Source: a virus. Taken from it: 32,787 bases of DNA. Each line of letters begins with the position of its first letter. Position 1 is the stretch's first letter. The stretch lies in IMG/VR virus record IMGVR_UViG_3300034166_001837, positions 1 through 32,787 of that record; one strand, written 5' to 3'. Under the pieces are notes generated by a model. That model searched no databases. It saw only the letters and a program-made list of their open reading frames with translations, and was not told the origin of the DNA. A program made the translations under genes and the position numbers. Positions 723 through 32,787 of this stretch are shown in pieces.

Positions 723-751
723 TTGCACGCCGCGGATCGGCGATCACAGTG
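723..751 (+). promoter_or_regulatory. Class A promoter-like site for small gene at 768
   Basis: TTGCAC (723-728), 17 bases, ACAGTG (746-751). The expected transcript start near 758 leaves a short leader containing GGAAGGAGAG. Confidence 0.5.
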
Positions 752-1039: not shown

Positions 1040-1068
1040 TTGCCGCGAGAGCGTCGGCCCCGACGGTC
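1040..1068 (+). promoter_or_regulatory. Class A promoter-like site, leaderless, for gene at 1076
   Basis: TTGCCG (1040-1045), 17 bases, ACGGTC (1063-1068), then 7 bases to GTG 1076. There is no Shine-Dalgarno sequence. Confidence 0.55.
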
Positions 1069-14108: not shown

Positions 14109-14121
14109 GACGGTTGCTGCC
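14109..14121 (-). promoter_or_regulatory. Class B site before the protease gene
   Basis: On the - strand GGCAGCAACCGTC ends 6 bases before ATG 14102. GTGTCG lies 18 bases upstream of the hexamer, so it may combine both forms. Confidence 0.5.
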
Positions 14122-14180
14122 GAAGTGGTTTGCGACACCCGCGAACTACTCTGAATGGACAGCCAGTCAAAGGAGATTGC

Positions 14181-19299: not shown

Positions 19300-19302
19300 T
19301 GG

Positions 19303-19752: not shown

Positions 19753-19759
19753 TGGCCCT

Positions 19760-19788
19760 CACTGTGATGAGGAGTGCCGCTATTGCAT
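19760..19788 (-). promoter_or_regulatory. Class A promoter-like site, leaderless, for gene 19752
   Basis: On the - strand ATGCAA (19788-19783), 17 bases, ACAGTG (19765-19760), then 7 bases to ATG 19752. Confidence 0.5.
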
Positions 19789-20344: not shown

Positions 20345-20390
20345 CTTGCTTCTCTTTCTTGTTGCCGGATCTGACGTCCGGGTTGCCTGG

Positions 20391-20419
20391 AACAGTGGCC
20401 AGCCCGGGTGGTGAGGCAT
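20391..20419 (-). promoter_or_regulatory. Class A promoter-like site for gene 20344
   Basis: On the - strand ATGCCT, 17 bases, ACTGTT, followed by a leader of about 40 bases with a ribosome binding site. It starts 11 bases after the terminase stop. Confidence 0.4.
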
Positions 20420-20429
20420 ACGGACGTGT

Positions 20430-21770
20430 TCAGGCCATCCGGAGCCGGAACTGGGGGCGGCTCACACCCGAGACCGCATAGCGGAGGGCGTCGACCGTGT
20501 GGTCGTCCCGTTTCACCGGCCGTTCCGGGGTGAGCGGCTGCCCGTCCGCGCCGACCGCCCACCGGTATCCGAGAAGCTCCCGCCACAGGACGGGGCAGGC
20601 GACGTCGTCGACGGCAAGTTCGTCTTTCGCGAGAAGCGACTGCACGGCGCGGATTCCGTCGGCGACACTCCCCGCCCGCTTGTCAGCGTCCTGAATCGGT
20701 AGCCCCCATCGTCGGAGCGACGCGGACGTCTGCGGGTAGTTCGTGTCGGAGATGACAGTTCGCGGATGCCAGATCTCGATGAGCGGCGAGACAAGATCGC
20801 GGACCGCTTCCGGGGTAGCGCACGGTGCGACCGCTTCCGCGACGGCGTGCCACCTGCTGCCGTGTTTCGCGAGGACGACCGCTGCGGTTGGGTTCTCTGA
20901 TCCGAGGTCGAGCCCAATGACGACGTCGTCTGCTTCTCCTGGCCCGATCCACGTGTCGAGGCGGCCCCTGGTGTGGCGCATCACGGACAGCTCTTTGAAG
21001 ATCGACCCTGCCGGGGTGAGCACTTCGCCGTAGATCTCCTGCCGTCCGAGGTCGGTTCCCTCGTAGGTGGCGATTAGCGAGGCGCGCCACGCGTCGTCGG
21101 TGTGCGGGTTGTCGAGCGATGACGGCGGCGGCGATGGTGGCAGCGCCCCGTGCTCGGCGCCACCGACGAACACGAGTCCCGGCTGCGGGAGCTTCTCGAC
21201 GTCGAGAAACAGGTTGTAGAAGAAGTTGCGGCCGTTCGGTGTTGTCGCGCAGAGGACTCGTGCCGGTGTCCCGTCCGGGAGCGGGAGACGTACGGCGAGC
21301 CGAAGCATGTGGTAACTCTCCTCATCCCAGAACGCGACCTCATCGGCGAGAGCGCCGTGCGCGTTCGTTCCACGCAAACTCTTCGGCTGGTCGGCAGACG
21401 CAAGCCGGATCGTCGAACCGTTAGCGAACCGGATCTCCATCTGTCCTGGTGTCCTCTTGAAGCTGTTCTCCCACGAGCTACCCGCGAGGGTGAACTCAAG
21501 GTTGGGGCGCACGTCGCTGCCGACGAGATGCCAGCGGAATCCGCCGTCACCTTCGGCGAGGATGCGGAGCGCCTCCGACCAGGTGCGTCCGACGGCGAGC
21601 CACATGGTGCCTGGATACGTGAGCGCCTGGGTGAGCAGCCATCGGCATCCGTTCCACGTTTTGCCGACACCGCGACCTCCGTAGAGAACTGCGGTCGTCC
21701 ACTGCCCTGCCGGGATCTTCTGATGTCGCAGCGGACGCCACGTGAGCGTCACTTCCCGTTTCACGGTCAC
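20430..21770 (-). CDS. terL: Terminase large subunit
   Basis: The 446-residue protein is the packaging motor. The ATPase half has Walker A GGRGVGKT (31-38), NSTIRLASADQPKSLRGTNAHGALADEVAFWD with the Walker B Asp-Glu near 150, and ATTPNG as coupling motif. The nuclease half has the three acidic sites VIGLDLGSEN, VISDTNYP and DDHTVDALRYAV of an RNase H-like fold. It would bind portal and cut packaged DNA. GTG 21770 overlaps the upstream stop by 4 bases; the open frame further up to 21983 is antisense to the lysozyme-like gene. The first segment before the Walker A is short, so no N-terminal extension is needed. Confidence 0.93.
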   Translation of the reverse strand: MTVKREVTLTWRPLRHQKIPAGQWTTAVLYGGRGVGKTWNGCRWLLTQALTYPGTMWLAVGRTWSEALRILAEGDGGFRWHLVGSDVRPNLEFTLAGSSWENSFKRTPGQMEIRFANGSTIRLASADQPKSLRGTNAHGALADEVAFWDEESYHMLRLAVRLPLPDGTPARVLCATTPNGRNFFYNLFLDVEKLPQPGLVFVGGAEHGALPPSPPPSSLDNPHTDDAWRASLIATYEGTDLGRQEIYGEVLTPAGSIFKELSVMRHTRGRLDTWIGPGEADDVVIGLDLGSENPTAAVVLAKHGSRWHAVAEAVAPCATPEAVRDLVSPLIEIWHPRTVISDTNYPQTSASLRRWGLPIQDADKRAGSVADGIRAVQSLLAKDELAVDDVACPVLWRELLGYRWAVGADGQPLTPERPVKRDDHTVDALRYAVSGVSRPQFRLRMA

Positions 21771-22204
21771 GCCTCTTTGGCGAGCTCTCGCACGATTCGC
21801 AGGTAGGTCTTGACGACGTTGCGAGTCCACGGGTAGCCGCGATCTTGTGTGTCGGCGCTCGCCCAGCGGACGCTTCCCGGCGGGCCTACATACTTGCCGT
21901 TCGCCCATCGACCGGTTGAGTGGAGACGCCCTTCGGCGATGTCGACGATCGTGGTCGCCTTGTTCCGGATCAGGATCTCGCACGCACGAGTCACCTGGGC
22001 GCGCACCCCGGCGTACCGGTACGTGCTGCCCGAGTCGTACGAGCCGACCCCGAGACCGTTGCCTTTCAGACCGTCACCTTTCGTGAACCAGTGCGTCTCA
22101 CTCCAGCCGATTGCGACGATGAGCAGCGGGTCGACGCCGTGGCGGCGGCAGATCTGCCGGACGAGTTTCCAGTCGCCCTCAGGGATTCCTAACGGGGTCT
22201 TCAC
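21767..22204 (-). CDS. Lysozyme/transglycosylase-like protein between terminase genes
   Basis: The 145-residue protein has the look of a small glucosaminidase or lytic transglycosylase: DPLLIVAIGWSETHWFTKGDGLKGNGLGVGSYDSG, with Glu36 in the place of the catalytic Glu, followed by a Thr/Tyr region and STGRWANGKYVGPPGSVRWAS. No signal peptide is seen. It lies between the small and large terminase genes with 4-base overlaps at both ends, so it is made with the packaging proteins. It may be a virion peptidoglycan hydrolase or a second lysin next to the M15 endolysin at 23763-24308. Family call is by pattern only. Confidence 0.55.
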   Translation of the reverse strand: MKTPLGIPEGDWKLVRQICRRHGVDPLLIVAIGWSETHWFTKGDGLKGNGLGVGSYDSGSTYRYAGVRAQVTRACEILIRNKATTIVDIAEGRLHSTGRWANGKYVGPPGSVRWASADTQDRGYPWTRNVVKTYLRIVRELAKEA

Positions 22205-22608
22205 TCGGGTGACTCCTCGGTGATGGTGAGCACCGTGAACCCGCCGGTCTGCTCGACACGCTCGATGTAGAGACCGGAGAGTTTCGCGACCTCCTGCAGA
22301 CGTGCCCGCTCCTCGGCGAGATACTTCGCTGCGGAAGCATGGTCGGCGAGTTCGGTTGCGCGTTCCGCTTCGACTGCTGCAGCGTCGGCGGCGGCGAGAT
22401 GCCGGGTGATGAGCTTGTTCAGAGTTGCGTCAGTCTTTGCGGAGAATGCGGCGGCACGTTCGGCGAGGAATGCCTTCGTGACTGCGACGACGGTCTTCGT
22501 TGACGTGTTGATCTGTGAGGCGACGGTCCGAACTGGGATGCCCTGGAGGCGCAGCGCGATGATCTGCTCGCGCTCCTCAGGAGTTAGACGACGGCCGATG
22601 TTGCTCAT
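22201..22608 (-). CDS. terS: Terminase small subunit
   Basis: The 135-residue product has an N-terminal helix-turn-helix, LTPEEREQIIALRLQGIPVRTVASQINTSTKTVVAVTKAFL (about residues 8-48), then a long Ala/Glu-rich helical oligomerisation region and a beta-like C-terminus. This is the usual arrangement of phage small terminase subunits, which bind the packaging site on DNA. ATG 22608 is leaderless-type: the class B hexamer ACGGTC ends 6 bases before it, preceded by CACAGCA. It is the first gene of the packaging operon, which proceeds through overlapping starts into the lysozyme-like and large terminase genes. Confidence 0.8.
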   Translation of the reverse strand: MSNIGRRLTPEEREQIIALRLQGIPVRTVASQINTSTKTVVAVTKAFLAERAAAFSAKTDATLNKLITRHLAAADAAAVEAERATELADHASAAKYLAEERARLQEVAKLSGLYIERVEQTGGFTVLTITEESPE

Positions 22609-22614
22609 ACCGGC

Positions 22615-22627
22615 GACCGTTGCTGTG
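22615..22627 (-). promoter_or_regulatory. Class B site before the small terminase gene
   Basis: On the - strand CACAGCAACGGTC ends 6 bases before ATG 22608. No TTG-type -35 is seen 17 bases upstream. Confidence 0.5.
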
Positions 22628-22721
22628 GAACTTTGTGGAAGTGGCGCGCTCGAGCGATCTCAACTCCCAGAGCAGATACAACGTGAGTGCCGTGACGATG
22701 TAGAGGAACATCCTGGGTCCG

Positions 22722-23096
22722 TTAGCGGAGCGCGACATCGTCGCCTCGGGGAGTTATGCGAACGATGACGTGGTCGCCAAGCACGATTGTCGGCATCCGC
22801 TCCTCCAGCCATTCGGGTGTGTCGTCAGGCCAAAGTCCGCAGCGGACGAGCTCGTCGACGATTGCCTTCTGAGTCGGCATCAGGTTCGACGGGTCGCGGC
22901 GACGCTTGTCGTTGACACCGAAGCGGATCTCGACGATGGACGGGCCGACGTTCTGAGGGCGACCTGCCTGGATCCACGCCGCACGGGTGGAGAGGATCCA
23001 CGGCTGGAGGAGACGGCGCTTCTCAGCCCAGTGGTGTCGGCCGTTGGCTGTGACGCTGCGACCGGGTCGAGGGAATGCGAGCTCGAGCGGCGCCAT
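22722..23096 (-). CDS. RusA-like Holliday junction resolvase
   Basis: The 124-residue product matches the RusA family, endonucleases that resolve branched DNA before packaging. Evidence is the N-terminal PGRSVTANGRHHWAEKRR, then RRRDPSNLMPTQKAIVDELVRCGLWPDDTPEWLEERMP, which holds the conserved DPSN, a Lys and the DD of the active site, and a final hydrophobic strand VIVRITPRGDD. ATG 23096 lies 6 bases after ACGGTC, with no Shine-Dalgarno sequence; the -35-like GTGCTA is 17 bases further up. It immediately precedes the small terminase gene, as is common. Confidence 0.82.
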   Translation of the reverse strand: MAPLELAFPRPGRSVTANGRHHWAEKRRLLQPWILSTRAAWIQAGRPQNVGPSIVEIRFGVNDKRRRDPSNLMPTQKAIVDELVRCGLWPDDTPEWLEERMPTIVLGDHVIVRITPRGDDVALR

Positions 23097-23102
23097 GTGC
23101 GC

Positions 23103-23131
23103 GACCGTTACCGCACTAGTTGCACTAGCAC
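23103..23131 (-). promoter_or_regulatory. Class A promoter-like site, leaderless, for RusA gene
   Basis: On the - strand GTGCTA, 17 bases, ACGGTC, then 6 bases to ATG 23096. The spacer contains a repeated CTAGTGC unit. The -35-like part matches TGC only. Confidence 0.4.
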
Positions 23132-23458
23132 TGCAAGATTCGAGTACCCGACAACCAGGTACAGCGACGAGACGATGAGGGTCGGGATTGGGCGCTTCCA
23201 GGCGACCCAGCAGAGGAATGCTGTGGCGAGCGCCTTCACGAGGAGGAACGCCGGCCAGTTGCCGACGATCGGAGCCATGAGCGGGTTCGTCTCGACTGCG
23301 CCGAGCTGAATGCCGATGGTCGTGGTGAGGAAGTCGAGCGACTGGCTGAGAACGATCGCGATGGTTCCGGCGATGGCTACACGTGTGCTGACGTTCTTGC
23401 GCGGGGGCCGAAGCGTGAAGAAGCTTCGGGCGGCTCGCTTGATGGTTGCTGTGGTCAT
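23108..23458 (-). CDS. Membrane protein, DUF5658-like
   Basis: The 116-residue product has a basic N-terminus and three or four hydrophobic helices (about residues 26-45, 58-75 and 85-112), with LDFLTTTIGIQLGAVETNPLM, which resembles small multi-TM proteins of the DUF5658 type. ATG 23458 is preceded by AAAGGAG; the frame extending to 24106 runs antisense through the neighbouring genes and is not used. The gene sits between the lipoprotein gene and the RusA gene. Its role is unknown; a holin or membrane-remodelling role is possible from context but unproven. Confidence 0.65.
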   Translation of the reverse strand: MTTATIKRAARSFFTLRPPRKNVSTRVAIAGTIAIVLSQSLDFLTTTIGIQLGAVETNPLMAPIVGNWPAFLLVKALATAFLCWVAWKRPIPTLIVSSLYLVVGYSNLAVLVQLVR

Positions 23459-23481
23459 TGGGGTCTCCTTTGGTTGTTCTG

Positions 23482-23510
23482 TTCCGTTAGGGCATTCGTG
23501 AGTGGCGCAA
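23482..23510 (-). promoter_or_regulatory. Class A-like site for membrane gene 23458
   Basis: On the - strand TTGCGC, 17 bases, ACGGAA (T of ACNGTN replaced by A). It begins right after the lipoprotein stop. Confidence 0.35.
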
Positions 23511-23511
23511 G

Positions 23512-23766
23512 TCAGCAGGTGGTGATGACCGAGCCGTCTTCTTCGACGCGAGCTGTGACCTGGCCGGTGCAGCCCGTGGTGGCGGTGTGGCACGGCGAGG
23601 GAACTTCGGTCTGCTTCCCGGTGGTCACGTCGATGTAGACGGCGACGCATTCGCGCGGCGTGGTGGTTTCTGTTGGCTCTTGCGGATCGCTGGTGGAGCA
23701 TCCGGCGAGTACGAGCAGCGCAACGAAGAGTGCGAAGAGTGCGGCACCGAACAGTGCCCGGTTCAC
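23512..23766 (-). CDS. Small lipoprotein
   Basis: The 84-residue product has a classic lipoprotein signal: MNRALFGAALFALFVALLVLAGC, with the lipobox LAGC giving Cys23 as the lipidation site. After it come a short Ser/Thr/Pro/Glu linker and a compact domain with Cys residues that could form disulphides (CVAVYIDVTTGKQTEV, CHTATTGCTGQV). It would be anchored on the outer face of the cell membrane. The start GTG 23766 overlaps the endolysin stop by 4 bases. Phage lipoproteins in this position are known to block superinfection in some systems; here that is inference only. Confidence 0.75.
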   Translation of the reverse strand: MNRALFGAALFALFVALLVLAGCSTSDPQEPTETTTPRECVAVYIDVTTGKQTEVPSPCHTATTGCTGQVTARVEEDGSVITTC

Positions 23767-24308
23767 GACTTGGTTTCCCAGGCGAGGACTGCTTCGGGGA
23801 TGTTGTCACCGGCGGTGTAAACCCAGTGCCAGGGCTCCGACTGGAGTTCTGCGTGGATGCCGAACTTCGGTGCTTCGTTGACGAGGAACCAGACGACGTT
23901 CTTCGGGAGGGAGACGACCCGCTTGTTCTTGTCGACGATGGCGAGGTCAGCTGCGAGGCCGAGTCCGTGGTTCGACTTGCCTGGTGTAGCGGCTTGCGCA
24001 GTGAACGGCTTCTGCCAGTACGTGAGCCCTTTCCATGTCTTCGTGGGGCGACCGGGGATTGGGAGCCGGGTGTAGCGACTGAGGAACAGTCGACGCTGCT
24101 GCTCAAAGGTGCGGTAGGTGCCTGTAGCGGTCAGGGTGAATCCGGCTTCACGTGCGGCTGCGACGAGCGCCCGCATGGCGCGAGCTGCAGTTGCTTCCAT
24201 CACGAATCCGGGCAGACCGCACGGATGTAGCAGTGCCGTGTCGAGTCGACCGTTCTTCTGCTTAGCGAGGGTGGTTGGCTTGGTGGGTTTCTTGGTCGGG
24301 AGTTTCAT
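23763..24308 (-). CDS. Endolysin, M15-type (VanY-like) peptidase
   Basis: The 181-residue product is a zinc peptidase of the M15/VanY type that cuts peptidoglycan cross-bridges at lysis. Active-site motifs are SNHGLGLAADLAI (His114, Asp121) and SEPWHW (Glu158, His161); YRTFEQQRRLFLSRY precedes them as usual. No signal peptide is seen, so release would need a holin. ATG 24308 is chosen because the class A hexamer ACGGTC lies 7 bases before it; the frame from 24344 would swallow the promoter-like site. A perfect inverted repeat surrounds the start (see finding). Neighbouring gene is the lipoprotein, overlapping by 4 bases. Confidence 0.85.
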   Translation of the reverse strand: MKLPTKKPTKPTTLAKQKNGRLDTALLHPCGLPGFVMEATAARAMRALVAAAREAGFTLTATGTYRTFEQQRRLFLSRYTRLPIPGRPTKTWKGLTYWQKPFTAQAATPGKSNHGLGLAADLAIVDKNKRVVSLPKNVVWFLVNEAPKFGIHAELQSEPWHWVYTAGDNIPEAVLAWETKS

Positions 24309-24315
24309 ACCCCGG

Positions 24316-24344
24316 GACCGTGTGCGCCCGGGGTATGACCGCAA
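24316..24344 (-). promoter_or_regulatory. Class A promoter-like site, leaderless, for endolysin
   Basis: On the - strand TTGCGG (24344-24339), 17 bases, ACGGTC (24321-24316), then 7 bases to ATG 24308. The hexamer lies in the loop of a perfect inverted repeat, ATACCCCGGG and CCCGGGGTAT. Confidence 0.55.
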
Positions 24345-24347
24345 GTG

Positions 24348-24500
24348 TCACTTCATCTGATCGACGAGCTCACGGAACTCCAGCCCGAGGATCTCGCAGC
24401 GGCGACTGATGTCGACTGCGAGCTCAGCGAAGTCTGGGCGTCCAAGCTCGACGAGCACGGCGTAGACCTCGTTCAGGTTGTTGATGCTGGTCACTTCCAT
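24348..24500 (-). CDS. Small hypothetical protein
   Basis: The 50-residue product starts MEVTSINNLNEVYAVLVELGRPDF and continues as two helices with an EILGLEFRELVDQMK end; helix-rich and acidic, no recognised family. ATG 24500 has a good Shine-Dalgarno sequence (AAAGGAG, 8 bases). It lies between the terminator at 24531-24556 and the endolysin promoter-like site, whose -35-like part starts a few bases after its stop. The strong ribosome binding site and compact fit make it more likely than not to be real. Confidence 0.55.
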   Translation of the reverse strand: MEVTSINNLNEVYAVLVELGRPDFAELAVDISRRCEILGLEFRELVDQMK

Positions 24501-24530
24501 TGTTGTTCTCCTTTCGTTGTGGAAGTACGA

Positions 24531-24556
24531 GCGGCCCGGGAATGTTCCCGGGCCGC
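24531..24556 (-). terminator. Strong hairpin terminator
   Basis: A perfect 12-bp inverted repeat, GCGGCCCGGGAA and TTCCCGGGCCGC, with a 2-base loop, directly after the gene at 24563-24877. Confidence 0.6.
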
Positions 24557-24562
24557 CGCTAG

Positions 24563-24877
24563 TTAGCGAGTGACCTGGAAGACTTCGAATGAGTCTTCGA
24601 CTTGGTCCATCACGTATTCGGCCACGTGGCGATCGCAGGATGCGACGTCGTGGCTGTAGAACGCGCAGTGGCGAGCGTGCATTGCCGCCTCAGCGATTTC
24701 TTCTTCATGGTCGGGGAAGCCTTCTTCTTGAGCGAAGATTCCTTCGAGGACTTCTTCCCACAGGAGTTGCTCGTAGTCGGATAGTCCCCAGCCGTGATAC
24801 AGCTGGTTGCCGACGTATTCGCCGCGTCTCCGTGCCTCGTCGAGTACGTCGTCGAGTGCGTTTCTGTGTTTACCCAT
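24563..24877 (-). CDS. Hypothetical acidic protein
   Basis: The 104-residue product starts MGKHRNALDDVLDEARRRGEYVGNQLYHGWGLSDYEQLLWEEVLEG and continues with a cluster HEEEIAEAAMHARHCAFYSHDVASCDRHVAEYV. The His/Cys-rich stretch might bind metal; the rest is acidic and helical. Not recognised. ATG 24877 is chosen because AGAAAGAGAG precedes it and because the extended frame to 25066 contains the promoter-like site. The leader of about 75 bases contains a small hairpin (CCCCGA/TCGGGG, 24918-24933). Confidence 0.6.
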   Translation of the reverse strand: MGKHRNALDDVLDEARRRGEYVGNQLYHGWGLSDYEQLLWEEVLEGIFAQEEGFPDHEEEIAEAAMHARHCAFYSHDVASCDRHVAEYVMDQVEDSFEVFQVTR

Positions 24878-24957
24878 GTTGGGCTCTCTTTCTGTGGTGA
24901 AGATCGAGGCCCAACCGCCCCGAGTCTTCGGGGTGGTGGTTTGTGGTTGGCGACGTT

Positions 24958-24986
24958 CACCGTGCGCGCCACGAGGCGGCGTGCAA
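24958..24986 (-). promoter_or_regulatory. Class A promoter-like site for gene 24877
   Basis: On the - strand TTGCAC, 17 bases, ACGGTG. It shares GCGCGCACGGT with the RecT promoter-like site. Confidence 0.5.
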
Positions 24987-25017
24987 GGCAGTGGCCTGAG
25001 AACTTTTGTGTTTGTTG

Positions 25018-25689
25018 TTAGTCCGGGTCGTCTTCCCAGTGGCCGGAGTCGTCCTGATCGTCCCATTCGGTGGGCTCGTCCAGGTCGATTACTCGGACGA
25101 TCTCGAACGCGGTCAGGTGCGGGTTCTTGTATTGGATGTTCTGGAGTTGGGCGATCTCGGACTCACTCGGTGACCGGTCAGTGAGCCGTCGGAACTCTTC
25201 GAGGATCAGTCCTGCGCGGAGCGTCTGGTTCCAGTCGAACTTCGGACAGTCTTCGTCACCGTGGACGACGCAGAGTTCCGGGTTGCGGATGATCTTGCCG
25301 CACCAGTAGCAGTGGGAGCAGTACGGCGCCTCGGCTTTGGACTGGCCGAGCGTCCAGTCGTTCTTCGGTGCGAACCGGGATGATGCCCAGGAGGCGAGAT
25401 GCTCGATGCTGCAGAAGGGGTACCCGGCGCCACCTTTGACGACAGCGCACGTCGTTGGGCGGAGCAGTCGACCGTTCTTCATAACTGAACCGTCGCCGTC
25501 TCTGATGTCTGGTGGCGAGATTGGCTTCGGTTCTTGGGCTTCAGCCATTCGGGATCGACTTTCGTGCGCGATGAGCTTCTGCAGCATCTTCTTGTATCGC
25601 TTGCGTGCGCGCAGCAGTTGCCAGTAGGCGCGGAACAGCGCGAACCAGTATCTGGGCGGTATGCGTCGCGGCGGAGTTTGCCGCGGCAT
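25018..25689 (-). CDS. Hypothetical protein with Cys/His cluster
   Basis: The 223-residue product starts with a basic, aromatic N-terminus (PRRIPPRYWFALFRAYWQLLRARKRYKKML), followed by a Cys/His-rich centre (CAVVKGGAGYPFCSIEHLASW, YCSHCYWCGKIIRNPELCVVHGDEDCPKF) that could hold one or two zinc ions, then a helical part and a very acidic tail. I do not recognise the family. ATG 25689 lies 3 bases after the HTH gene stop, so the two form an operon under the class A site at 25955-25983. Confidence 0.6.
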   Translation of the reverse strand: MPRQTPPRRIPPRYWFALFRAYWQLLRARKRYKKMLQKLIAHESRSRMAEAQEPKPISPPDIRDGDGSVMKNGRLLRPTTCAVVKGGAGYPFCSIEHLASWASSRFAPKNDWTLGQSKAEAPYCSHCYWCGKIIRNPELCVVHGDEDCPKFDWNQTLRAGLILEEFRRLTDRSPSESEIAQLQNIQYKNPHLTAFEIVRVIDLDEPTEWDDQDDSGHWEDDPD

Positions 25690-25692
25690 AGA

Positions 25693-25947
25693 TCAATCCC
25701 CGCCTGGTCTTGGTTCGTCTGTCGGCAACGGGATCACGGTCCGACCGGTTGGGTCTGTGCCGATTCCGTCGCGGTTTGGTGAGCGTCTCTCGATCCGGAT
25801 GCGTCCCTCGAGCTCGAGCGTGGCGAGGTGTCGGGAAATGGTCCGCTCTGAGCAGTGGAGTTCCGTGCCGAGTCGCCGGTTGGATGCGTGGCGTAGTTCG
25901 GGTCGGCTGGTGAGCAGGTCGAGGAGGCGTCGGTGGTGCGGCTTCAT
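25693..25947 (-). CDS. Winged-helix DNA-binding protein
   Basis: The 84-residue product has a winged helix-turn-helix: HRRLLDLLTSRPELRHASNRRLGTELHCSERTISRHLATLELEGRIRIERR (about residues 5-56), with recognition helix ERTISRHLATLE and a basic wing. The tail is short and Pro-rich. It could be a transcription regulator; with no CI-like repressor in the window it is one candidate for the switch, unproven. ATG 25947 is leaderless-type: ACGGTC ends 7 bases before it. It heads an operon with the Cys/His gene. Confidence 0.7.
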   Translation of the reverse strand: MKPHHRRLLDLLTSRPELRHASNRRLGTELHCSERTISRHLATLELEGRIRIERRSPNRDGIGTDPTGRTVIPLPTDEPRPGGD

Positions 25948-25954
25948 ACCGCTT

Positions 25955-25983
25955 GACCGTCAGCGCACGTACGGTTTCGACAA
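25955..25983 (-). promoter_or_regulatory. Class A promoter-like site, leaderless, for HTH gene
   Basis: On the - strand TTGTCG, 17 bases, ACGGTC, then 7 bases to ATG 25947. Confidence 0.55.
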
Positions 25984-26000
25984 GGCTCGCCACCTGGCGC

Positions 26001-26282
26001 TCAGCCGACGTAGACGTAGAAAACCTCGTCGTGGTAGACGGTGACGTTGACGCGATCCGTTCGACGATCGAGAGTGATGGGACGTAGGTGGCCGTCGCGC
26101 AGCACGACTCGGAACCTCCAGCCGAAATGCTTCGCGCAGGATCTTGCGTCTTTGACGTTCAGGCCGAGGAGTGCCCTGGTCGCGAACTTGGTTGTCGGTG
26201 GCCGAGGTGCTCGTTCTGCGAGGTTCTCGTTACAGATACCTGGCATAAAGGTCAGCGTTAGCGCTGCAAGTGTGCTGAGCAT
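26001..26282 (-). CDS. Secreted I78-like protease inhibitor
   Basis: With the start at ATG 26282 the product is 93 residues: a signal peptide (LSTLAALTLTFMPGIC) and a small domain with GLNVKDARSCAKHFGWRFRVVLRDG and ITLDRRTDRVNVTVYHDEVFYVYVG. This resembles the potato-inhibitor-like I78 family, whose conserved core is an R-x-x-x-x-D-G then a DRxNV strand. The ATG is set by the class A hexamer ACCGTG 6 bases before it; the GTG 26291 overlaps the hexamer. I78-like proteins in bacteria inhibit secreted serine proteases; why a phage has one is unknown. Confidence 0.55.
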   Translation of the reverse strand: MLSTLAALTLTFMPGICNENLAERAPRPPTTKFATRALLGLNVKDARSCAKHFGWRFRVVLRDGHLRPITLDRRTDRVNVTVYHDEVFYVYVG

Positions 26283-26288
26283 CCTTCT

Positions 26289-26317
26289 CACGGTGGTGAG
26301 GTTGGCCCTGGTTGCAT
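26289..26317 (-). promoter_or_regulatory. Class A promoter-like site, leaderless, for I78-like gene
   Basis: On the - strand ATGCAA, 17 bases, ACCGTG, then 6 bases to ATG 26282. It decides the start of this gene. Confidence 0.5.
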
Positions 26318-26324
26318 ACCCCCG

Positions 26325-26720
26325 CTAGCGGTGAAGGGCCGCCATGTAGACCATTCCGAGGATGTCCTCCCCACCGGTCGCCGGTGGGAGCGCCGACCAG
26401 ATCTCGGTGAGCCGGGCGAAGTCTTCTGCAGTCCTAGCGAGTCCGATGTGAGCGACGAGACCGGTGTCGAGGTTCTCCGCTCTGCTGTCGAACGACATTG
26501 CCGCCATAAGGGCAAGCAGGTAGTGCTCCTCTCCGGCGCCGATCTTCTTCAGGTATTCCCAGTCGAGTGCGGCTGGCAGCTGCTCACGGAACGTGCTGTT
26601 GAGCAGTGCGATCACAGCCCACGCGAGGCAGAGCGTCCTTGTCTGCCCCGGCGTGAGCTTGTATCGGCAATACTCGAACGTCTGCTCGACGGCACGCTCC
26701 AGGCAAGCGTCAAGGCTCAT
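26325..26720 (-). CDS. Hypothetical helical protein
   Basis: The 131-residue product is almost fully helical and includes CLERAVEQTFEYCRYKLTPGQTRTLCLAWAVIALLNSTF and HYLLALMAAMSF, then an acidic stretch and LPPATGGEDILGMVYMAALHR. There is no signal peptide; the hydrophobic parts could be membrane-associated or a helical core. Not recognised. ATG 26720 overlaps the upstream stop (ATGA), so it belongs to the RecT operon. Confidence 0.6.
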   Translation of the reverse strand: MSLDACLERAVEQTFEYCRYKLTPGQTRTLCLAWAVIALLNSTFREQLPAALDWEYLKKIGAGEEHYLLALMAAMSFDSRAENLDTGLVAHIGLARTAEDFARLTEIWSALPPATGGEDILGMVYMAALHR

Positions 26721-26950
26721 CGGCGCGCCGCAGCCCAGAACCACTCAGGGGTGGTTTCGAATACAACCTCCCCCGCGTGGTTCCTGACTTCGAGGTATTC
26801 CCCGGACGAGTTGCCGCGTCCGTCGTTCTCGACCTGCAGACGTTTTGCGTATGAGATCGCCTCGCGCTTGCGCGTGAAGGTCTGAGGCACGATGTGACCT
26901 ACCCACTGGTTGCGGCTGGTCACCCATCGGAGCCGATAAACACGGCGCAT
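26717..26950 (-). CDS. Hypothetical basic small protein
   Basis: The 77-residue product is basic, with MRRVYRLRWVTSRNQWVGHIVPQTFTRKREAISYAKRLQVEND, a beta-beta-alpha pattern often seen in small phage DNA- or RNA-associated proteins (resemblance only), and an aromatic-rich end TPEWFWAAARR. A good Shine-Dalgarno sequence, GAGGAGG, precedes ATG 26950. It overlaps the upstream gene by 31 bases and the following gene by 4, so it is in the RecT operon. Confidence 0.6.
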   Translation of the reverse strand: MRRVYRLRWVTSRNQWVGHIVPQTFTRKREAISYAKRLQVENDGRGNSSGEYLEVRNHAGEVVFETTPEWFWAAARR

Positions 26951-27198
26951 CGTTCCTCCTCATCGTGGTGGCTTTGTCCTGCGTGTAGGCGGTCACCTAG
27001 GGCGCAGTGCATGTCCCAGTCGTACTCGGCCACCTCCTCGTCCATTTCTGAGGACTCAACCCAACGCTTCTCTACGGTGTCGTAGGTCTTTCCGCCAAAG
27101 GTCGACATGAGGAGTTCGTCGTCGGGTTGGAAGTGGAACTCTCCGTTATCGGTGACTGCTCCGACTACGACCCACACGTGGCGGTATCTGCCGGTCAT
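26920..27198 (-). CDS. Hypothetical protein
   Basis: The 92-residue product has a beta-rich first half (RHVWVVVGAVTDNGEFHFQPDDELLMSTF) and an acidic second half with DEEVAEYDWDMHCALGDRLHAGQSHHDEEERCAVFIG. Not recognised. The start ATG 27198 overlaps the RecT stop by 4 bases (ATGA), so it is probably translated with RecT. It overlaps the next gene by 31 bases. Confidence 0.6.
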   Translation of the reverse strand: MTGRYRHVWVVVGAVTDNGEFHFQPDDELLMSTFGGKTYDTVEKRWVESSEMDEEVAEYDWDMHCALGDRLHAGQSHHDEEERCAVFIGSDG

Positions 27199-28103
27199 AC
27201 GGATACCTCTTCGGCGGTCGGCTCCCAGTAGCCCGGGGTGGTTTGCTTGACACGATCAACGGCACGCTCGAGTGCGGTGATGACGTCGCGCGCCTGGCTC
27301 TTCGTGAGATCCTTCGCGGACTTCACACCGGCCACCTTCTCGAGACCGGCGCGATACTGGTCATCGGTCAGGCCGGCCTCCTTGCGGAGAACCTGGATGC
27401 GCTTGAGCTGGTTCGGCTCGATGTCCTCACGGAGTTCGGCGACGACGTCGACCAGCGACTGCGGCTCGTCTCCTGCGACTGGTGTCGACTCGACGATGTT
27501 TGCCTCGATTGCTCGTGCCGCGTTCGTGATGCGCGGCTCGCTGTCTGCCTGGCTCATCTCCTCCGACGTGTACACACCGGCGAGGTCCTGAGGGAAGGCC
27601 TTGCGAAGTGCGAGGGCTTCAGCGCACTTGGCGAGCATGCGGTGCGGCATCTTCGCCCAGAGCCCCATCGGGCGTCCGTCCTTAGTCGTCTGGCAGTACT
27701 CCGCCCAGTGGGCTGTCGCAGTGAATGCGCAGCGCACGCCACCGATGACTTTGTACACGCTGACCGTCGCGGACGTCGGCAGTCCGTTCGGACCTTCGAC
27801 CCACGACTCGTCGCTGCCGGCGTAAACACCGGTGCGCTCGGCGATGAGGCGGTATCCGTCGATGCCGGTCTGAATCGTGTACTTCGTCGCCTGCGCACGT
27901 CCGTCCCAGCGGCCGACCAGGTACACCTGGCGAGCGAAGGGGTCGAGTCCTGTGCGGACGCACTGATGGAAGAAGACCGCGAGATCACTCTCGTTGACCT
28001 TCTCGACGCCGAGCTGACGCAGCGCGGCGACCTGCTTCTGAGTGAATCCGGTTTGACCCGGTTGGATGGCCAGCTCACTCGTGGCCTTGGTGATGTCGGA
28101 CAT
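27195..28103 (-). CDS. recT: RecT/Bet-type single-strand annealing protein
   Basis: The 302-residue product belongs to the Bet/RecT annealing family. Signatures are GFTQKQVAALRQLGVEKVNESDLAVFFHQCVRTGLDPFARQVYLVGRWDGRAQATKYTIQTGIDGYRLIAERTG, then WKMPHRMLAKCAEALALRKAFPQDLAGVYTSEEM (approximate, with AKMP). The C-terminus is a variable helical and acidic part. It would bind single-stranded DNA and pair complementary strands. ATG 28103 has AAGAAAGGAAAG upstream; a GTG at 28148 lies right after the promoter-like site and is less likely. No exonuclease partner gene is visible nearby. It heads the leftward operon under the class A site at 28150-28178. Confidence 0.9.
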   Translation of the reverse strand: MSDITKATSELAIQPGQTGFTQKQVAALRQLGVEKVNESDLAVFFHQCVRTGLDPFARQVYLVGRWDGRAQATKYTIQTGIDGYRLIAERTGVYAGSDESWVEGPNGLPTSATVSVYKVIGGVRCAFTATAHWAEYCQTTKDGRPMGLWAKMPHRMLAKCAEALALRKAFPQDLAGVYTSEEMSQADSEPRITNAARAIEANIVESTPVAGDEPQSLVDVVAELREDIEPNQLKRIQVLRKEAGLTDDQYRAGLEKVAGVKSAKDLTKSQARDVITALERAVDRVKQTTPGYWEPTAEEVSV

Positions 28104-28149
28104 GATCTTTCCTTTCTTGTCCTGTGCCGACGGCGTCGGCACTGACACC

Positions 28150-28178
28150 TACCGTGCGCGCTATCCGAAAGATTGCAA
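28150..28178 (-). promoter_or_regulatory. Class A promoter-like site for the RecT operon
   Basis: On the - strand TTGCAA, 17 bases, ACGGTA. The spacer contains TTTCGGATAGCGC, also present in the divergent site at 28477-28505, so it may be an operator. Confidence 0.6.
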
Positions 28179-28244
28179 TGAGGTGTGCGCATGACCGGAG
28201 AACGCCTCAAGGATCCCGGTCTGTGGTCTGCAGCGGATCCAAGT

Positions 28245-28363
28245 CCACCGTGACCGTGTCTGTGGCTCCCCTTCTAGAGAAGGGGGGAGCCACGGTGACA
28301 CGGTCACTGGAGATGGACCGCGACTGTGGCGACGACCGTGGCGAAATCACGGTGACACGGTCA
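28245..28363. repeat. Iteron-like repeats and long hairpin, candidate origin
   Basis: CACGGTGACACGGTCA occurs at 28291-28306 and 28348-28363. Its inverted partner, GTGACCGTGTC at 28250-28260, forms with the first copy a long interrupted hairpin over GTGGCTCCCC (about 28250-28307). The whole stretch between the two divergent promoter-like sites (28179-28476) has no convincing gene. It could be a replication origin or an operator cluster; no initiator box is recognised. Confidence 0.45.
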
Positions 28364-28394
28364 GCGACGGTGACGCACTCGTCCGGAAATAGAC

Positions 28395-28439
28395 GACGAC
28401 CTCCGGGGAAGAAAGGAGAGAAAGACCCCGGAGGTCGTC
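28395..28439 (-). ncRNA. Candidate hairpin RNA or structured element between divergent promoters
   Basis: A perfect 14-bp inverted repeat (28395-28408 and 28426-28439) has a 17-base loop. A class B motif, GCAGCAACCGTC on the - strand (28456-28445), points at it; a transcript starting 6-7 bases later would begin at the stem. In that RNA the loop is pyrimidine-rich and complementary to AAGAAAGGAGAGAAAGA, close to the ribosome binding sites of RecT (12 of 13 bases) and some other early genes. A terminator or an origin hairpin are alternatives. Confidence 0.3.
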
Positions 28440-28476
28440 ACCGGGACGGTTGCTGCAAGTTTCTGCTCACGGCGGG

Positions 28477-28505
28477 TTGCGCCATTTCGGATAGCGCTCA
28501 CAGTC
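28477..28505 (+). promoter_or_regulatory. Class A promoter-like site for the rightward replication operon
   Basis: TTGCGC (28477-28482), 17 bases, ACAGTC (28500-28505), with the shared spacer TTTCGGATAGCGC. A leader of about 45 bases with GAAAGAGAG precedes ATG 28558. Confidence 0.55.
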
Positions 28506-28557
28506 GGGTCTCGTCGAGCCATCCGGCCGACATGACCCCCATGAAAGAGAGAAAGCT

Positions 28558-28809
28558 ATGAAGGAGAGCAAGAGCATCCGAGAGGAGCTGCTCACAATCC
28601 TGCGGACGTTCCCCGTGGGAACTACTGCGGTGTTGCCTGAGTCGATTGCCGATGATCTCGGCGTGACTCGTCGTGCCGTCGAGTGGACGTTGGCACGACT
28701 CGAAGAGGACGGCGTTGTCCGGTGGCACCGTAAGACGCGCGGCGGTCTTCGCCGTCCGTGGTGGCCAGTAACGGTTCTCGCACCAATCACAAAGGAGGTG
28801 CAGTCGTGA
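28558..28809 (+). CDS. Winged-helix DNA-binding protein upstream of the replication ATPase
   Basis: The 83-residue product is a winged helix-turn-helix protein: REELLTILRTFPVGTTAVLPESIADDLGVTRRAVEWTLARLEEDGVVRWHRKTRGGLRRPWWPV, with recognition helix RRAVEWTLARLEED and an Arg-rich wing. It could be a regulator or help open the origin next to it. ATG 28558 has AAAGAGAG upstream. The stop overlaps the GTG start of the ATPase gene by 4 bases, so the two are co-translated. Confidence 0.72.
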   Translation: MKESKSIREELLTILRTFPVGTTAVLPESIADDLGVTRRAVEWTLARLEEDGVVRWHRKTRGGLRRPWWPVTVLAPITKEVQS

Positions 28810-29930
28810 CGACGAACGTTTTCGAGGAGGCCGTACAACCGGTCGTTGATGTCCTGGCAGGCGCGCCTCGTCGTCGCCCTGGCGATTCGTGGCGGCCGGT
28901 TGACCTGTCCGTTGTGCTCGACGACAGTTACGAGCAGCCCCGTCCGACAATCGGCCACGTCGCCGGTGCTGAGGTCGGCATGTTCTACCCCGGGCGTATC
29001 AACGCGCTGTTCGGAGATTCCGGCGGCGGCAAGACCTGGTATGCGCTCTACGTGATGAGCCAGGAGATGCTCCTCGGCCGTGACGTGGTGCTCGTCGACT
29101 ACGAGGACCATCCGGTGTCGCAGGTCGCGCGCCTCGAGCAGATCGGTGTGCCACGTGAGACGATTCTCAGGCACCTGATCTACATCCAGCCGAACGAGAA
29201 GTGGAGCCAGGTGTCTGAGCGTGCGCTGCTCGAGTCGCTCGCTGACCGTGATGTCGCCATCGCGGTGCTCGACTCGACCGGCGAGGCGCTCGCCGTTGAC
29301 GGCGTTTCCCCGAACGCCGACGAGGAGGTCGCCCGCTGGTTCCGTGGCTCTGCCCGGACGCTCGCTCAAACCGGTGCGGCAGTTGTGCTGCTCGACCACG
29401 TCGTCAAGTCACGCGAGAGCAACCGCAACGTCGAGTTTGCTAGCGGCTCTCAACGGAAGCGCGCTGCGGTGAATGGCGCCGCGTACTTCCTGAAGGTGAT
29501 CTCGGCTCCGTCGAAGTCGTCTGATGGCGAGTTTGAGATGTGGACCCGCAAGTGCCGTTTCGGTTGGCGTAAGCACGACACTGTGGCGTGCCACGTGTCG
29601 ATGACGAACACTGATGATGGCGGCGTGATGTTCACTGTTCGTCAACACGACGAGTCGAGTCAGCCGACGAAGAAGGTTCGAAAGACCTGGTACATGGAAG
29701 CCATCTCGCGGGAGCTGAAGCTCGCCGGGGCGGCTATGTCGAAGCGCGAAATCCTGAAGGCGGTCGGCAAGACGCACCTGTTCACGTCCGAAGCTCTCGA
29801 GACGCTCCTGGCTGAGGGATTCCTCACGGAGACGTCTGGGCCGCGTAACGCCCGGATGTTCACCTTGGTCAAGGAGTTCACGCAGGCAGCCGACGAGGCT
29901 GGCATCGAAGCGACTGGCAATCCGTTCTAA
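28806..29930 (+). CDS. RecA-like replication ATPase (RepA/DnaB-type helicase-like, AAA_25)
   Basis: The 374-residue product has a P-loop RecA core: Walker A GDSGGGKT (70-77), a VVLVDYED strand, Walker B AIAVLD (151-156) and LLDHVVKS after it. This is the pattern of RepA-type hexameric helicases of phages and plasmids (AAA_25). About residues 300-374 form a winged-helix region (SKREILKAVGKTHLFTSEALETLLAEGFLTE), probably DNA binding. GTG 28806 has a strong AAAGGAGG site. A tRNA gene begins 1 base after the stop on the other strand. Confidence 0.85.
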   Translation: MTTNVFEEAVQPVVDVLAGAPRRRPGDSWRPVDLSVVLDDSYEQPRPTIGHVAGAEVGMFYPGRINALFGDSGGGKTWYALYVMSQEMLLGRDVVLVDYEDHPVSQVARLEQIGVPRETILRHLIYIQPNEKWSQVSERALLESLADRDVAIAVLDSTGEALAVDGVSPNADEEVARWFRGSARTLAQTGAAVVLLDHVVKSRESNRNVEFASGSQRKRAAVNGAAYFLKVISAPSKSSDGEFEMWTRKCRFGWRKHDTVACHVSMTNTDDGGVMFTVRQHDESSQPTKKVRKTWYMEAISRELKLAGAAMSKREILKAVGKTHLFTSEALETLLAEGFLTETSGPRNARMFTLVKEFTQAADEAGIEATGNPF

Positions 29931-29931
29931 G

Positions 29932-30005
<74 letters not shown>

Positions 30006-30015
30006 TAGGCAGCCC

Positions 30016-30044
30016 CACTGTATTGCCTACATAGGTAAGAACAC
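30016..30044 (-). promoter_or_regulatory. Class A promoter-like site for tRNA-Arg
   Basis: On the - strand GTGTTC, 17 bases, ACAGTG, then 10 bases to the 5' end of the tRNA. It is back to back with the sigma gene promoter-like site, 3 bases apart. Confidence 0.4.
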
Positions 30045-30047
30045 TTC

Positions 30048-30076
30048 TTGCCCGGGCCGTCGTCGCCCCGACGGTC
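30048..30076 (+). promoter_or_regulatory. Class A promoter-like site, leaderless, for sigma-like gene
   Basis: TTGCCC (30048-30053), 17 bases, ACGGTC (30071-30076), then 6 bases to ATG 30083. Confidence 0.55.
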
Positions 30077-30082
30077 ACGGGC

Positions 30083-30895
30083 ATGGAAGACGGTGCTCTG
30101 TGGCTCGCATACGAGACTTGTGAGGATGATGCGACGCGCACCGCGCTCGCCAAGAAGATCGTCAGCACCCATCTTCCGTTCCTCCGCTACTACGCCGCGC
30201 AGACAGCATTCCCCTACTGGTCTGAACAGGTTCGCGAGGAGTATCTCCACGAGCTTGTGATTGTCGCGATCGGCAAAGTCCCGACCTACAACCGTCTGCG
30301 GATCGGTGGCAGTTCCGGCAAGGTCGCCAAGTTCGTCACTTACCTGAAGCCCTACCTGCAGGGCGTCCGATGGGACATCTCGGCACGTGAGGCGCCGATC
30401 CCCGTCGGTCGTGAGACACGGCGGATGCGCGCGGACGCTCAACGCTTCATCCGAGAGCGCGAGGCCAGCAGCCTCGAGTGGACGTGGGACGACGTCGCCG
30501 ACGCGGTGTCCCGGGCCCACGGGAAGACCGTCTCCCCGACCCGCATCGAGCGGATCGTGAACGGGATCCAGGTCGTCTCCGGGGACGCGGTCGCCGGGGA
30601 GGACGGCGAGGAGCTGTGGTCGGTTGAGGCCCCGGCGGCACCGTCCGTCGAGGACCAGGTGGTCGACGGGGTCGCCCGCGGGAGATTGTCACTCGCAGTG
30701 CAAAATGTCATAAACGACCTCGAGCTCGACGACCTCGATCGGGCGATCGTCACCGACCGGCTGATGGCGCCGCCGGCTGAGAGGGCGTCACACCAGGAGC
30801 TTGCGCAGTGGTTCGAGGTCAGCCTCGTTGACGTCGCAGCCAGGGAGCGCCAAGTGGTTGAGCTTCTCCGCAGCGCTCTCGGGCCGCTCCTGTAG
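30083..30895 (+). CDS. Phage-encoded sigma-70-family factor
   Basis: The 270-residue product has the layout of a sigma-70-family factor. Region 2-like: IVSTHLPFLRYYAAQTAFP, an acidic/helical stretch EQVREEYLHELVIVAIGKVP, and KFVTYLKPYLQGVRWDIS (the aromatic DNA-melting segment, about residues 15-110). Region 3-like: TWDDVADAVSRAHGKTVSPTRIERIVNG (about 130-160). Region 4-like: NDLELDDLDRAIVTDRL and ASHQELAQWFEVSLVDVAARERQVVELLRSAL (about 210-265), with the helix-turn-helix that would read a -35 element. ATG 30083 has no Shine-Dalgarno sequence; ACGGTC ends 6 bases before it, suggesting the gene is in the regulon it may control (inference). Pattern-based call; some regions are divergent. Confidence 0.7.
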   Translation: MEDGALWLAYETCEDDATRTALAKKIVSTHLPFLRYYAAQTAFPYWSEQVREEYLHELVIVAIGKVPTYNRLRIGGSSGKVAKFVTYLKPYLQGVRWDISAREAPIPVGRETRRMRADAQRFIREREASSLEWTWDDVADAVSRAHGKTVSPTRIERIVNGIQVVSGDAVAGEDGEELWSVEAPAAPSVEDQVVDGVARGRLSLAVQNVINDLELDDLDRAIVTDRLMAPPAERASHQELAQWFEVSLVDVAARERQVVELLRSALGPLL

Positions 30896-30902
30896 CGCCG
30901 AT

Positions 30903-31150
30903 CTCGCCCCGTCACCGCCCCGTGAATCGTCGGACACGGCTGGACTTTGTTGGACTTTACGGGACCTTCCTGAAAGCCCGAAAACACGCCTAAATCGCAA
31001 GATTCCCCAGTATTTGCAAGGGTTCGAGGGGCATCGACGGGATACACGCCGACGGATTAGGAAACCGTCACCCTGTCCTCGTATTCCCCTGTATTTAGTG
31101 GGTTTCCGAGTGGCGGTGTGAACCTCGCCCCGTCCACGCCCCGTGATTCG
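30903..31150. other. Gene-free region with direct repeats before the excisionase
   Basis: From 30896 to 31215 no convincing gene is seen. A 27-base repeat with three mismatches (starting CTCGCCCCGTC) is at 30903-30929 and 31124-31150. A looser pair, TTCCCC(A/T)GTATTT followed by a GGG/GGTT run, lies near 31005-31030 and 31083-31110. These could be integrase/excisionase arm sites, so attP may be here and not in int; or early regulatory DNA. Confidence 0.45.
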
Positions 31151-31180
31151 GGAAACGCGTCCAGCTATGCACAAGTGCGT

Positions 31181-31209
31181 ATGCATTCTACGCACTCGCA
31201 TCAACTGTT
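31181..31209 (+). promoter_or_regulatory. Class A promoter-like site, leaderless, for excisionase
   Basis: ATGCAT (31181-31186), 17 bases, ACTGTT (31204-31209), then 6 bases to ATG 31216. A 7-bp inverted repeat, GTGCGTA and TACGCAC (31175-31195), overlaps the -35-like part and may be an operator. Confidence 0.45.
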
Positions 31210-31215
31210 GCTGCC

Positions 31216-31425
31216 ATGCAAGACAAGCAGAACAACACACGACCCCAAGGTGAGTGGCTGACCCAGGCGGACATCCTGGTCGAGCTCGACATCTCCCGGT
31301 CCACGCTTGCGAAATGGAGGACTGAAGGCCGCGGCCCTGTCTTCCGCAAACTCCCCAACGGGGAACTCCGAATCCGGCGTCGTGATTTCGAGGCCTGGAT
31401 AACCTCCCTAGAGGAGGTGGCATAA
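31216..31425 (+). CDS. xis: Excisionase-like HTH protein (MerR/Xis type)
   Basis: The 69-residue product is a MerR-type helix-turn-helix of the excisionase class: GEWLTQADILVELDISRSTLAKWRTEGRGPVFRKLPNGELRIRRRDFEAWI (about residues 12-62), with the helix-turn-helix, a wing and a conserved DFEAWI end. It would bind the attachment region and direct the integrase to excise. The ATG has no Shine-Dalgarno sequence (class A leaderless-type start). The stop is directly followed by the integrase ATG, so both are in one operon. Confidence 0.8.
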   Translation: MQDKQNNTRPQGEWLTQADILVELDISRSTLAKWRTEGRGPVFRKLPNGELRIRRRDFEAWITSLEEVA

Positions 31426-32787
31426 ATGGTTCGGCGGTTCACTAGCCCCGTCCGGGTCTGGGACATCATCACCCGCCCGGACAAGCCGAGCCCCTACGTC
31501 GTCCGATGGATCTACCTCCGGAAGGAACACACGAGAAGCTTCCGTCTGAAGAGCCAGGCGGATGACTTCCGGGTCGCCCTCATCTCGGCCATCAACAATC
31601 GGGAGCGGTTCTCTGCCGAGACCGGCGAGCCGGTGTCCTGGGCGCTCGAGGAGATGACTATCGCCAACGTCGCCAAGACGTTCGTCGACTCGTACAAACT
31701 CCGCTGGGCCCCGAAGACGCGCTCGAGCAACCTTCCTCCCCTTGCGGAGGCACTGGTGCTCCTCGTCCCGAAGCGGGCACCAGCTCCGCCGGATGACATC
31801 CGCGCGGCCATCTGCGATTGGCTGATGAGCGACGACGGGGACTGCCCCGCGTGGCTTGCCAAGCACTCGCTCAGCGTTCCGGAATGCACGCCCGACGTGT
31901 GCTCTGACGTGATGAACGAGCTGACGAAGAAGCGCGATGCTTCGGGCGCCGGTGCGTCTCGACTTCGTGGCGCTAACACCGTGAACCGCTATCGGCGGGC
32001 GATCGGTCAGCTGTTCGGCTACGCAACCAAGCGTGAGCTGTTCACTTCGAACCCGTGGCCGCAGGCCGACCGGGGGAAGAAGACGCGCGCGGAGACGAAC
32101 GCCGTCCCCGTAGCGAAGCGGTCACGCCCATCTGCCGAGCAGGTGATCGCAACCATCGCAAAGCTGAAGAACCATCAGCCGCACTCAAAGGACATCCAGA
32201 CTTTGGCGTGGATCATCTGGCACACCGGCATGCGTCCGGCTGAGGCCAGGGCGCTGCGCATTGAGCACTGCCTTCTTCCGGAGACAGGTCTCGGTCAGGT
32301 AGTCATCGCTGAAGCCGTCCAAGGTGGAAGCAAGCGCTTCTGGATGGAGCACGAGCAGAAAATCGGTCAGACGAAGACCGGTACGACGCGCACGATGCCG
32401 CTCAACCCAGAGCTCGTTCGCATCATCCGCGAGCACGTCGGGGAACGCACGTCGGGTCTGATTTGTCGAACCCGCAACGGCGACCCGATCTCGGAGTCGA
32501 ACTTCGAACGCGCCTGGGCGCGGGTTCGTGGTGCGGGCAACACGTGGCGTCTCTACGACCTGCGACACACGCACGCGACGATGGCTGTCCGTGCCGGTGC
32601 CTCGCCGGACAAGGTGGCGCAGTGGCTCGGTCACGACAAGGAGGTGCTCATGAGCATCTACTTCGGCGAGCTTCCCGACGACGATGCGACTGCCCGCCGG
32701 ATTTATGAGACAGGCCCGTTCACCGTCGAAGTCGACGGAAATCGGACGGAAAAGGCCCCGAAAAGCCCTGCTTCTCGTCGGAAAACG
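31426..32787 (+). CDS. int: Tyrosine integrase (3' end continues in left copy)
   Basis: The 454 codons are open to the window end. The N-terminal half has a SAM-like DNA-binding region with VNRYRRAIGQLFGYATKRELFTSNPWPQ. The catalytic half has Arg270 in HTGMRPAEARALR, a likely Lys in the beta hairpin near 321, the box YDLRHTHAT (Arg380; the usual His is Tyr377), LGHD with His403 and the nucleophile Tyr412 in MSIYFGE. The stop is missing because the gene leaves the window in a basic tail. The segment from 32626 repeats bases 1-162, so the C-terminus may be swapped on integration. A strong Shine-Dalgarno sequence (AGAGGAGG) lies inside the excisionase gene end. Confidence 0.92.
   Translation, partial: MVRRFTSPVRVWDIITRPDKPSPYVVRWIYLRKEHTRSFRLKSQADDFRVALISAINNRERFSAETGEPVSWALEEMTIANVAKTFVDSYKLRWAPKTRSSNLPPLAEALVLLVPKRAPAPPDDIRAAICDWLMSDDGDCPAWLAKHSLSVPECTPDVCSDVMNELTKKRDASGAGASRLRGANTVNRYRRAIGQLFGYATKRELFTSNPWPQADRGKKTRAETNAVPVAKRSRPSAEQVIATIAKLKNHQPHSKDIQTLAWIIWHTGMRPAEARALRIEHCLLPETGLGQVVIAEAVQGGSKRFWMEHEQKIGQTKTGTTRTMPLNPELVRIIREHVGERTSGLICRTRNGDPISESNFERAWARVRGAGNTWRLYDLRHTHATMAVRAGASPDKVAQWLGHDKEVLMSIYFGELPDDDATARRIYETGPFTVEVDGNRTEKAPKSPASRRKT
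32626..32787. repeat. Right copy of terminal direct repeat (integrase 3' end)
   Basis: This is the partner of the repeat at 1-162, with the same reading frame and two mismatches at 32753 and 32781. It ends exactly at the window end, so the true repeat may be longer. Confidence 0.85.

Follow-up and report, generated by a model that had tools for sequence, protein, structure and literature searches.

Sigma factors of the T4 gp55 and SPO1 gp28 type act in lytic phages, where they serve middle or late genes. As documented for gp55/gp33, they redirect the core RNA polymerase of the host (PMC3014915). According to a survey of phages, ~13% of phage genomes carry a sigma factor, the sporulation-like ones resembling the SigF/SigG factors of the host and acting on its spore genes (PMC9429907). 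SigN (ZpdN), encoded by the B. subtilis plasmid pBS32, is a weakly ECF-like factor whose production is started by a LexA-repressed SigA promoter; it then directs its own promoter, in a positive feedback, together with a regulon of plasmid genes that largely leaves out the prophage genes of pBS32 (PMC6751061). In T4, the starts of genes e, soc and 49 are buried in hairpins whose 5' arm includes the promoter, and for gene e the hiding of the start in longer transcripts has been shown experimentally (PMC3014915).

The stretch of DNA analysed here (the window, 32,787 nucleotides) comprises the whole circular genome of a soil phage, ~32.6 kb long with a 162-nt end repeat, and carries integrase, excisionase-like, recT and structural genes; the phage probably infects an actinobacterium. 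One of its genes encodes a protein of 270 aa that almost certainly is a real, very divergent sigma-70-family factor (Table 1), and that belongs to a known kind of protein, the phage sigma factors, as a new, very divergent family. Like SigN, it is a sigma factor of a mobile element (pBS32 carries a cryptic prophage), for which we propose an own promoter, a regulon within the element and positive feedback; unlike for SigN, a starter promoter was not found here and the putative target sites lie at the sigma gene itself and at the early operons. Its proposed likeness to the T4 gp55 and SPO1 gp28 type lies in the redirection of the host core polymerase, and its difference in a single promoter class that includes early promoters, in a phage having both an integrase and an excisionase. 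It shares with the sporulation-like phage sigmas membership of the sigma-70 family and a phage origin but is too divergent for the family models.

Table 1. Predicted features of the window, with their positions and strands.
Feature	Position	Strand	Remark
Class A promoter-like site	723..750	+	CACAGT
Class A promoter	1040..1067	+	gene 1076-1939; leaderless GTG 8 nt on; G001 orthologue inverted
Class A promoter	24317..24344	-	leaderless ATG 8 nt on; orthologous in G001
Class A promoter-like site	24959..24986	-	no orthologous site assigned
Class A promoter, TTGT variant	25956..25983	-	leaderless ATG 8 nt on; orthologous in G001
Class A ('class B') promoter of the recT operon	28151..28178	-	orthologous site in G001
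Operator-like element TTTCGGATAGCGC	28158..28170	-	in spacer of the recT promoter
Class A ('class B') promoter of the wHTH/ATPase operon	28477..28504	+	orthologous site in G001
Operator-like element TTTCGGATAGCGC	28485..28497	+	in spacer of the wHTH/ATPase promoter
wHTH replication-type protein and AAA_25 (KaiC/RadB-like) ATPase genes	28558..29930	+	upstream of the sigma gene
tRNA-Arg(CCT) gene	29931-30005	-	between the ATPase and sigma genes
Inverted repeat / hairpin	30044..30089	+	over -35, -10 and AUG of the sigma gene
Sigma-gene promoter, TTGC-N13-GC-N3-GACGGT	30048..30075	+	7 nt before ATG
Divergent sigma-70-family factor (very probable)	30083..30895	+	270 aa, ATG start; homology and fold
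Regions of the sigma protein	region 2, ~aa 23-105; region 3, ~aa 106-162; region 4, ~aa 200-267		
Finger-like (region 3.2) segment VVSGDAVAGEDGEELW	aa 164-179 of the sigma protein		
Variant site ATGC-N13-GC-N3-AACTGT	31181..31208	+	excisionase-like gene, 7 nt before ATG

The protein of the window on its own gives nothing useful in Pfam, NCBIfam or PHROGs, where it reaches no curated cut-off, and its identity was established through its relatives, which match sigma models where it does not. These are found in G001 (also named L002; 63% identity), L008 (also named G002; 36%, reached via its terminase and afterwards via the profile), G007 (38%) and G015 (35%). Searches by tblastn against phage and plasmid records retrieved no relative, and two scans of genome contigs no host or cellular one. 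The G001 orthologue matches TIGR02937 (6.5e-7) over nearly its whole length (aa 23-265) and phrog_351, 'RNA polymerase sigma factor' (3.6e-6), while the G015 orthologue matches SigF/SigBFG models (9.3e-7 for SigF). The earlier note had described region 2-, 3- and 4-like segments and named profile or structure comparison with sigma factors as the check; both comparisons bear it out and add a finger 3.2 segment. Indeed, hhalign aligns a five-member profile with E. coli RpoS, FliA, RpoH and RpoD through regions 2-4 (profile columns 27-271; E 4.4e-10, prob 96.7), and in a Foldseek search of the PDB with a structure model of only moderate confidence (pLDDT 65; the single-sequence prediction was too poor) the top matches are all sigma factors, nearly all from RNA polymerase complexes, the best being sigma32 (E 5.8e-5; 22 matches below 1e-3). 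Region 4 on its own superposes well, with SigL, at 2.2 A across 74 residues. Homology over regions 2-4 and a sigma fold, two marks of the sigma-70 family, were both found. An assignment to the ECF (group 4) factors was rejected, as the region 3-like and finger-like segments align with RpoS/RpoD, and so was one to the housekeeping type (group 1), as region 1.1 is lacking and the positions of W433, W434, Q437 and T440 differ.

According to the earlier note, the sigma gene lies directly after the replication genes; the wHTH and ATPase genes do precede it, but the tRNA-Arg(CCT) gene intervenes on the other strand. The order ATPase then sigma is kept in G001, L008, G007 and G015. Around 31053 in the window, 'cggattaggaaaccgtca' looks like the anticodon arm of a tRNA, and in G001 a tRNA-like remnant lies between the sigma and excisionase genes (L002 ~6925-6995); an att site within the tRNA-Arg gene is possible. 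Elsewhere in the window, an MmeI-type restriction-modification gene (13890-16958, +) forms an opposite-strand insertion among the structural genes and has no counterpart in G001, L008, G006, G007 or G015.

The phage of the window very probably has a promoter class of its own, in agreement with the earlier note, which called these promoter-like sites class A. Their consensus is TTGC-N13-GC-N3-[CG]AC[GA]GT, then 7-8 nt to ATG. The pattern TTGC-N18-[CG]AC[AG]GT occurs at 8 sites in the window vs 0.31 +/- 0.54 expected from dinucleotide shuffles, and at 8 sites vs 0.22 expected in the relative G001; at other spacings, it finds just 0-2 matches. In an alignment of 16 sites from the window and G001, the G and C lying five and four bases 5' of the -10 are present in 16/16, and these positions played no role in the selection of the sites. 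Six sites, on both strands, are orthologous between the two genomes, with an identity of 55/60 in the boxes vs 54/108 in the spacers. No refined class A site occurs in the four phages used as controls, of which three are actinophages. Two sites lacking the GC element, at 420 in the window (intragenic) and at 33308 in G001, were discarded as chance. The -10 has A in second and T in last position, as in sigma-70 promoters, and lacks the first T of TANNNT. In sigma-70, this T is read by Q437 and T440, whose counterparts in the phage sigma are, from the alignment, ~G94 and W97.

As the start codon lies 7-8 nt downstream of the -10 at many of these sites, their transcripts would be leaderless. This applies to the sigma gene, which starts as TTGC-N18-GACGGT-CACGGGC-ATG; the absence of a Shine-Dalgarno sequence and the ATG placed 7 nt past GACGGT agree with the leaderless start that the earlier note attributed to it. 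The promoter at 24317..24344 serves gene 23763-24308 and is the final class A site ahead of the structural genes. At the excisionase-like gene, the orthologous site of G001 reads ATGC-N13-GC-N3-AACAGT. Gene 1076-1939 (+), whose function is not known, is present in all compared phages having the sigma (25-45% identity); it is inverted in G001, and each copy retains its own class A promoter.

The earlier note also distinguished a class B, which we infer to be the pair of sites at 28477 (+) and 28178 (-). These sites share with class A the -35, the spacing, the GC element and the -10, and their sole difference is TTTCGGATAGCGC within the spacer. In the window and G001 alike, they are the divergent early promoters, of recT leftwards and of wHTH/ATPase rightwards. 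At 0 mismatches, each genome has exactly two copies of the spacer element (TTTC[CG]GAT[AT]GCGC), both in these promoters, and G001 has one additional copy in opposite orientation; besides G001, a search of the viral collection found it in three unrelated contigs, ~chance level. Two classes with a common -10 had been described; the common -10 holds, but the identity of the other elements makes them one class. We likewise give almost no credence to the cascade built on them, in which class A would be read early by a host or phage factor, and class B late by the new one: the two site types can be distinguished by eye, but those of class B share all promoter elements with class A and are confined to the divergent early operons of both genomes. 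Class B is better read as a repressible early version of class A, and the position and restricted distribution of the spacer element would fit a putative operator of a lysogeny repressor. In L008, a class A promoter at 8059-8032 (-) has an inverted repeat, GTTTCGC/GCGAAAC, around its -10, perhaps an operator of that phage.

The link between the sigma and the promoter was approached by two independent scans of IMG/VR. In a blind scan of 2.9 million contigs for the refined promoter followed by ATG, which used no protein information, 117 stretches were retrieved; among the contigs tested, members of the sigma family are encoded by G001, G007, G008 and G015 and absent from ~97 others that match the pattern. 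Searched with the sigma profile, the collection yields exactly five contigs, G001, G007, G008, G015 and L008, 4/5 of which the promoter pattern had therefore recovered; these phages are related, so that common ancestry or a shared host could also underlie the co-occurrence. In the window, G001, G007 and G015, the start codon of the sigma gene follows a class A -10 at a distance of 7-8 nt, which is 7 nt in G007 and, in G015, 7 nt from GACGGT (with the GC and a TTGT -35). In L008, the sigma gene overlaps the gene upstream and has no promoter gap there; one class A site lies further upstream, ahead of the early operon. The recognition helix of region 4 varies among the members of the family, although TTGC is kept, which counts against the link.

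In a sister lineage, the promoters occur where the sigma does not. G006 (also named L155), complete and circular, has 8 class A sites vs 0.02 expected. In G052, a partial genome related to it, there are 5 vs 0.10, and a search of both for the sigma family detected no member. In these phages, class A promoters can thus work through a host factor, a region-4 protein or an unrecognised factor. G006 does encode a 121-aa sigma-region-4 protein (PF08281, 1.1e-12; L155 12580-12942, +), behind a class A-type leaderless promoter; for a region-2 protein, the best, weak match in G006 is a metallophosphoesterase-like gene. The window and G006 have some early genes in common (ATPase, 49%; p23763, 53%), and G006 bears the metagenome sample id of G001.

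It seems likely, from the sequences compared, that the phage sigma reads the class A promoters, that of its own gene included. The main competing explanation, which we hold to be rather unlikely, is that a sigma factor of the host reads them and that the phage sigma serves other promoters or redirects the polymerase to host genes. The promoters of G006 and G052, the early genes and sample that tie G006 to the window and G001, and the fact that early promoters of temperate phages normally need the host polymerase alone all speak for it. It predicts, however, an enrichment in many unrelated phages, whereas, in the 117 stretches of the scan, a clear one is confined to the G006/G052 lineage and the phages that have the sigma; moreover, the -10 departs from the housekeeping TANNNT in its first T, and it is exactly a class A promoter that stands at the start of four sigma genes.

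A shared reading, in which the region-4 protein of G006/G052 would cooperate with region 2 of a host sigma while the lineage of the window uses its full-length sigma, could account for the promoter in front of the G006 protein, but this rests on a single complete genome, the region-4 domain is also a common HTH and no region-2 partner was found in G006, which makes it very unlikely. Slightly less credible still is that the TTGC...GACGGT sites bind a regulator and are not promoters at all: several of them contain inverted repeats, but the repeat differs from site to site, the -10 stands at a constant 7-8 nt from the ATG at many genes, and the geometry is that of a -35 and a -10.

The start of the sigma gene also lies in a strong inverted repeat, whose hairpin in the window (~-32 kcal/mol) has a folding z of ~-3.2 to -3.5; the corresponding structures of G001, G007 and G015 have z of -3.4, -5.9 and -5.5, and the repeats of the four phages are quite unlike one another in sequence. 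The helix includes the AUG in the phage of the window and in G001. At 3/25 other starts of the window, z is -3.5 or lower, so the hairpin is not peculiar to sigma genes. The repeat is suggestive only, of a start hidden in longer transcripts, of a DNA operator or of a terminator of the ATPase-operon RNA; that it insulates the sigma start is a tentative reading, somewhat doubtful as it stands. The parallel with T4 gene e has its bounds: there the hairpin is tested and a Shine-Dalgarno sequence is present, whereas that of the phage sigma is predicted and leaderless.

If the phage sigma is the reader of class A, it would bind the host core RNA polymerase and direct initiation at TTGC-N13-GC-N3-[CG]AC[GA]GT, transcripts beginning at the start codon or 1-2 nt off. 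Once some sigma has been made, the class A promoter of its gene would lead to self-amplification and to activation of the phage operons. A repressor bound to the spacer operator of the divergent early promoters would hold the lysogenic state, and the inverted repeat would probably block the yield of sigma from read-through of the ATPase operon, by burying the AUG or by termination; translation would then be limited to transcripts that start from the sigma gene's own promoter. Self-amplification, the spacer operator and the insulating hairpin are what we infer from the arrangement of these elements. As the early promoters are also of class A, a loop having the phage sigma as sole reader needs a starter. 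Compared with the circuit of SigN, a class A site that the sigma may read is present at four sigma genes, but neither a LexA-repressed nor a host-sigma starter promoter was found: the surroundings of the sigma gene contain no LexA box (GAACN4GTTC) and no housekeeping-type promoter, and 18000-32787 contains no sigma-70 consensus promoter. We regard as quite improbable the widest version of this scheme, a temperate family in which a self-activating sigma would read every main promoter, those of the early operons among them, with leaderless transcripts and a start locked by a hairpin, the loop deciding between lysis and lysogeny, and of which the sister lineage would have kept only a region-4 protein.

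The G006 lineage raises the question of what reads class A promoters where the sigma is absent. In the phages that encode it, a sigma factor, its probable promoter and its genome-wide target sites can be read together although these phages are uncultured. The promoter is unusual by its -10 devoid of the first-position T, its invariant 18-nt gap and its GC element, and with the sigma it forms a directly testable pair that is possibly orthogonal to those of the host. More largely, a scan of metagenomes by promoter can recover the matching transcription factor.
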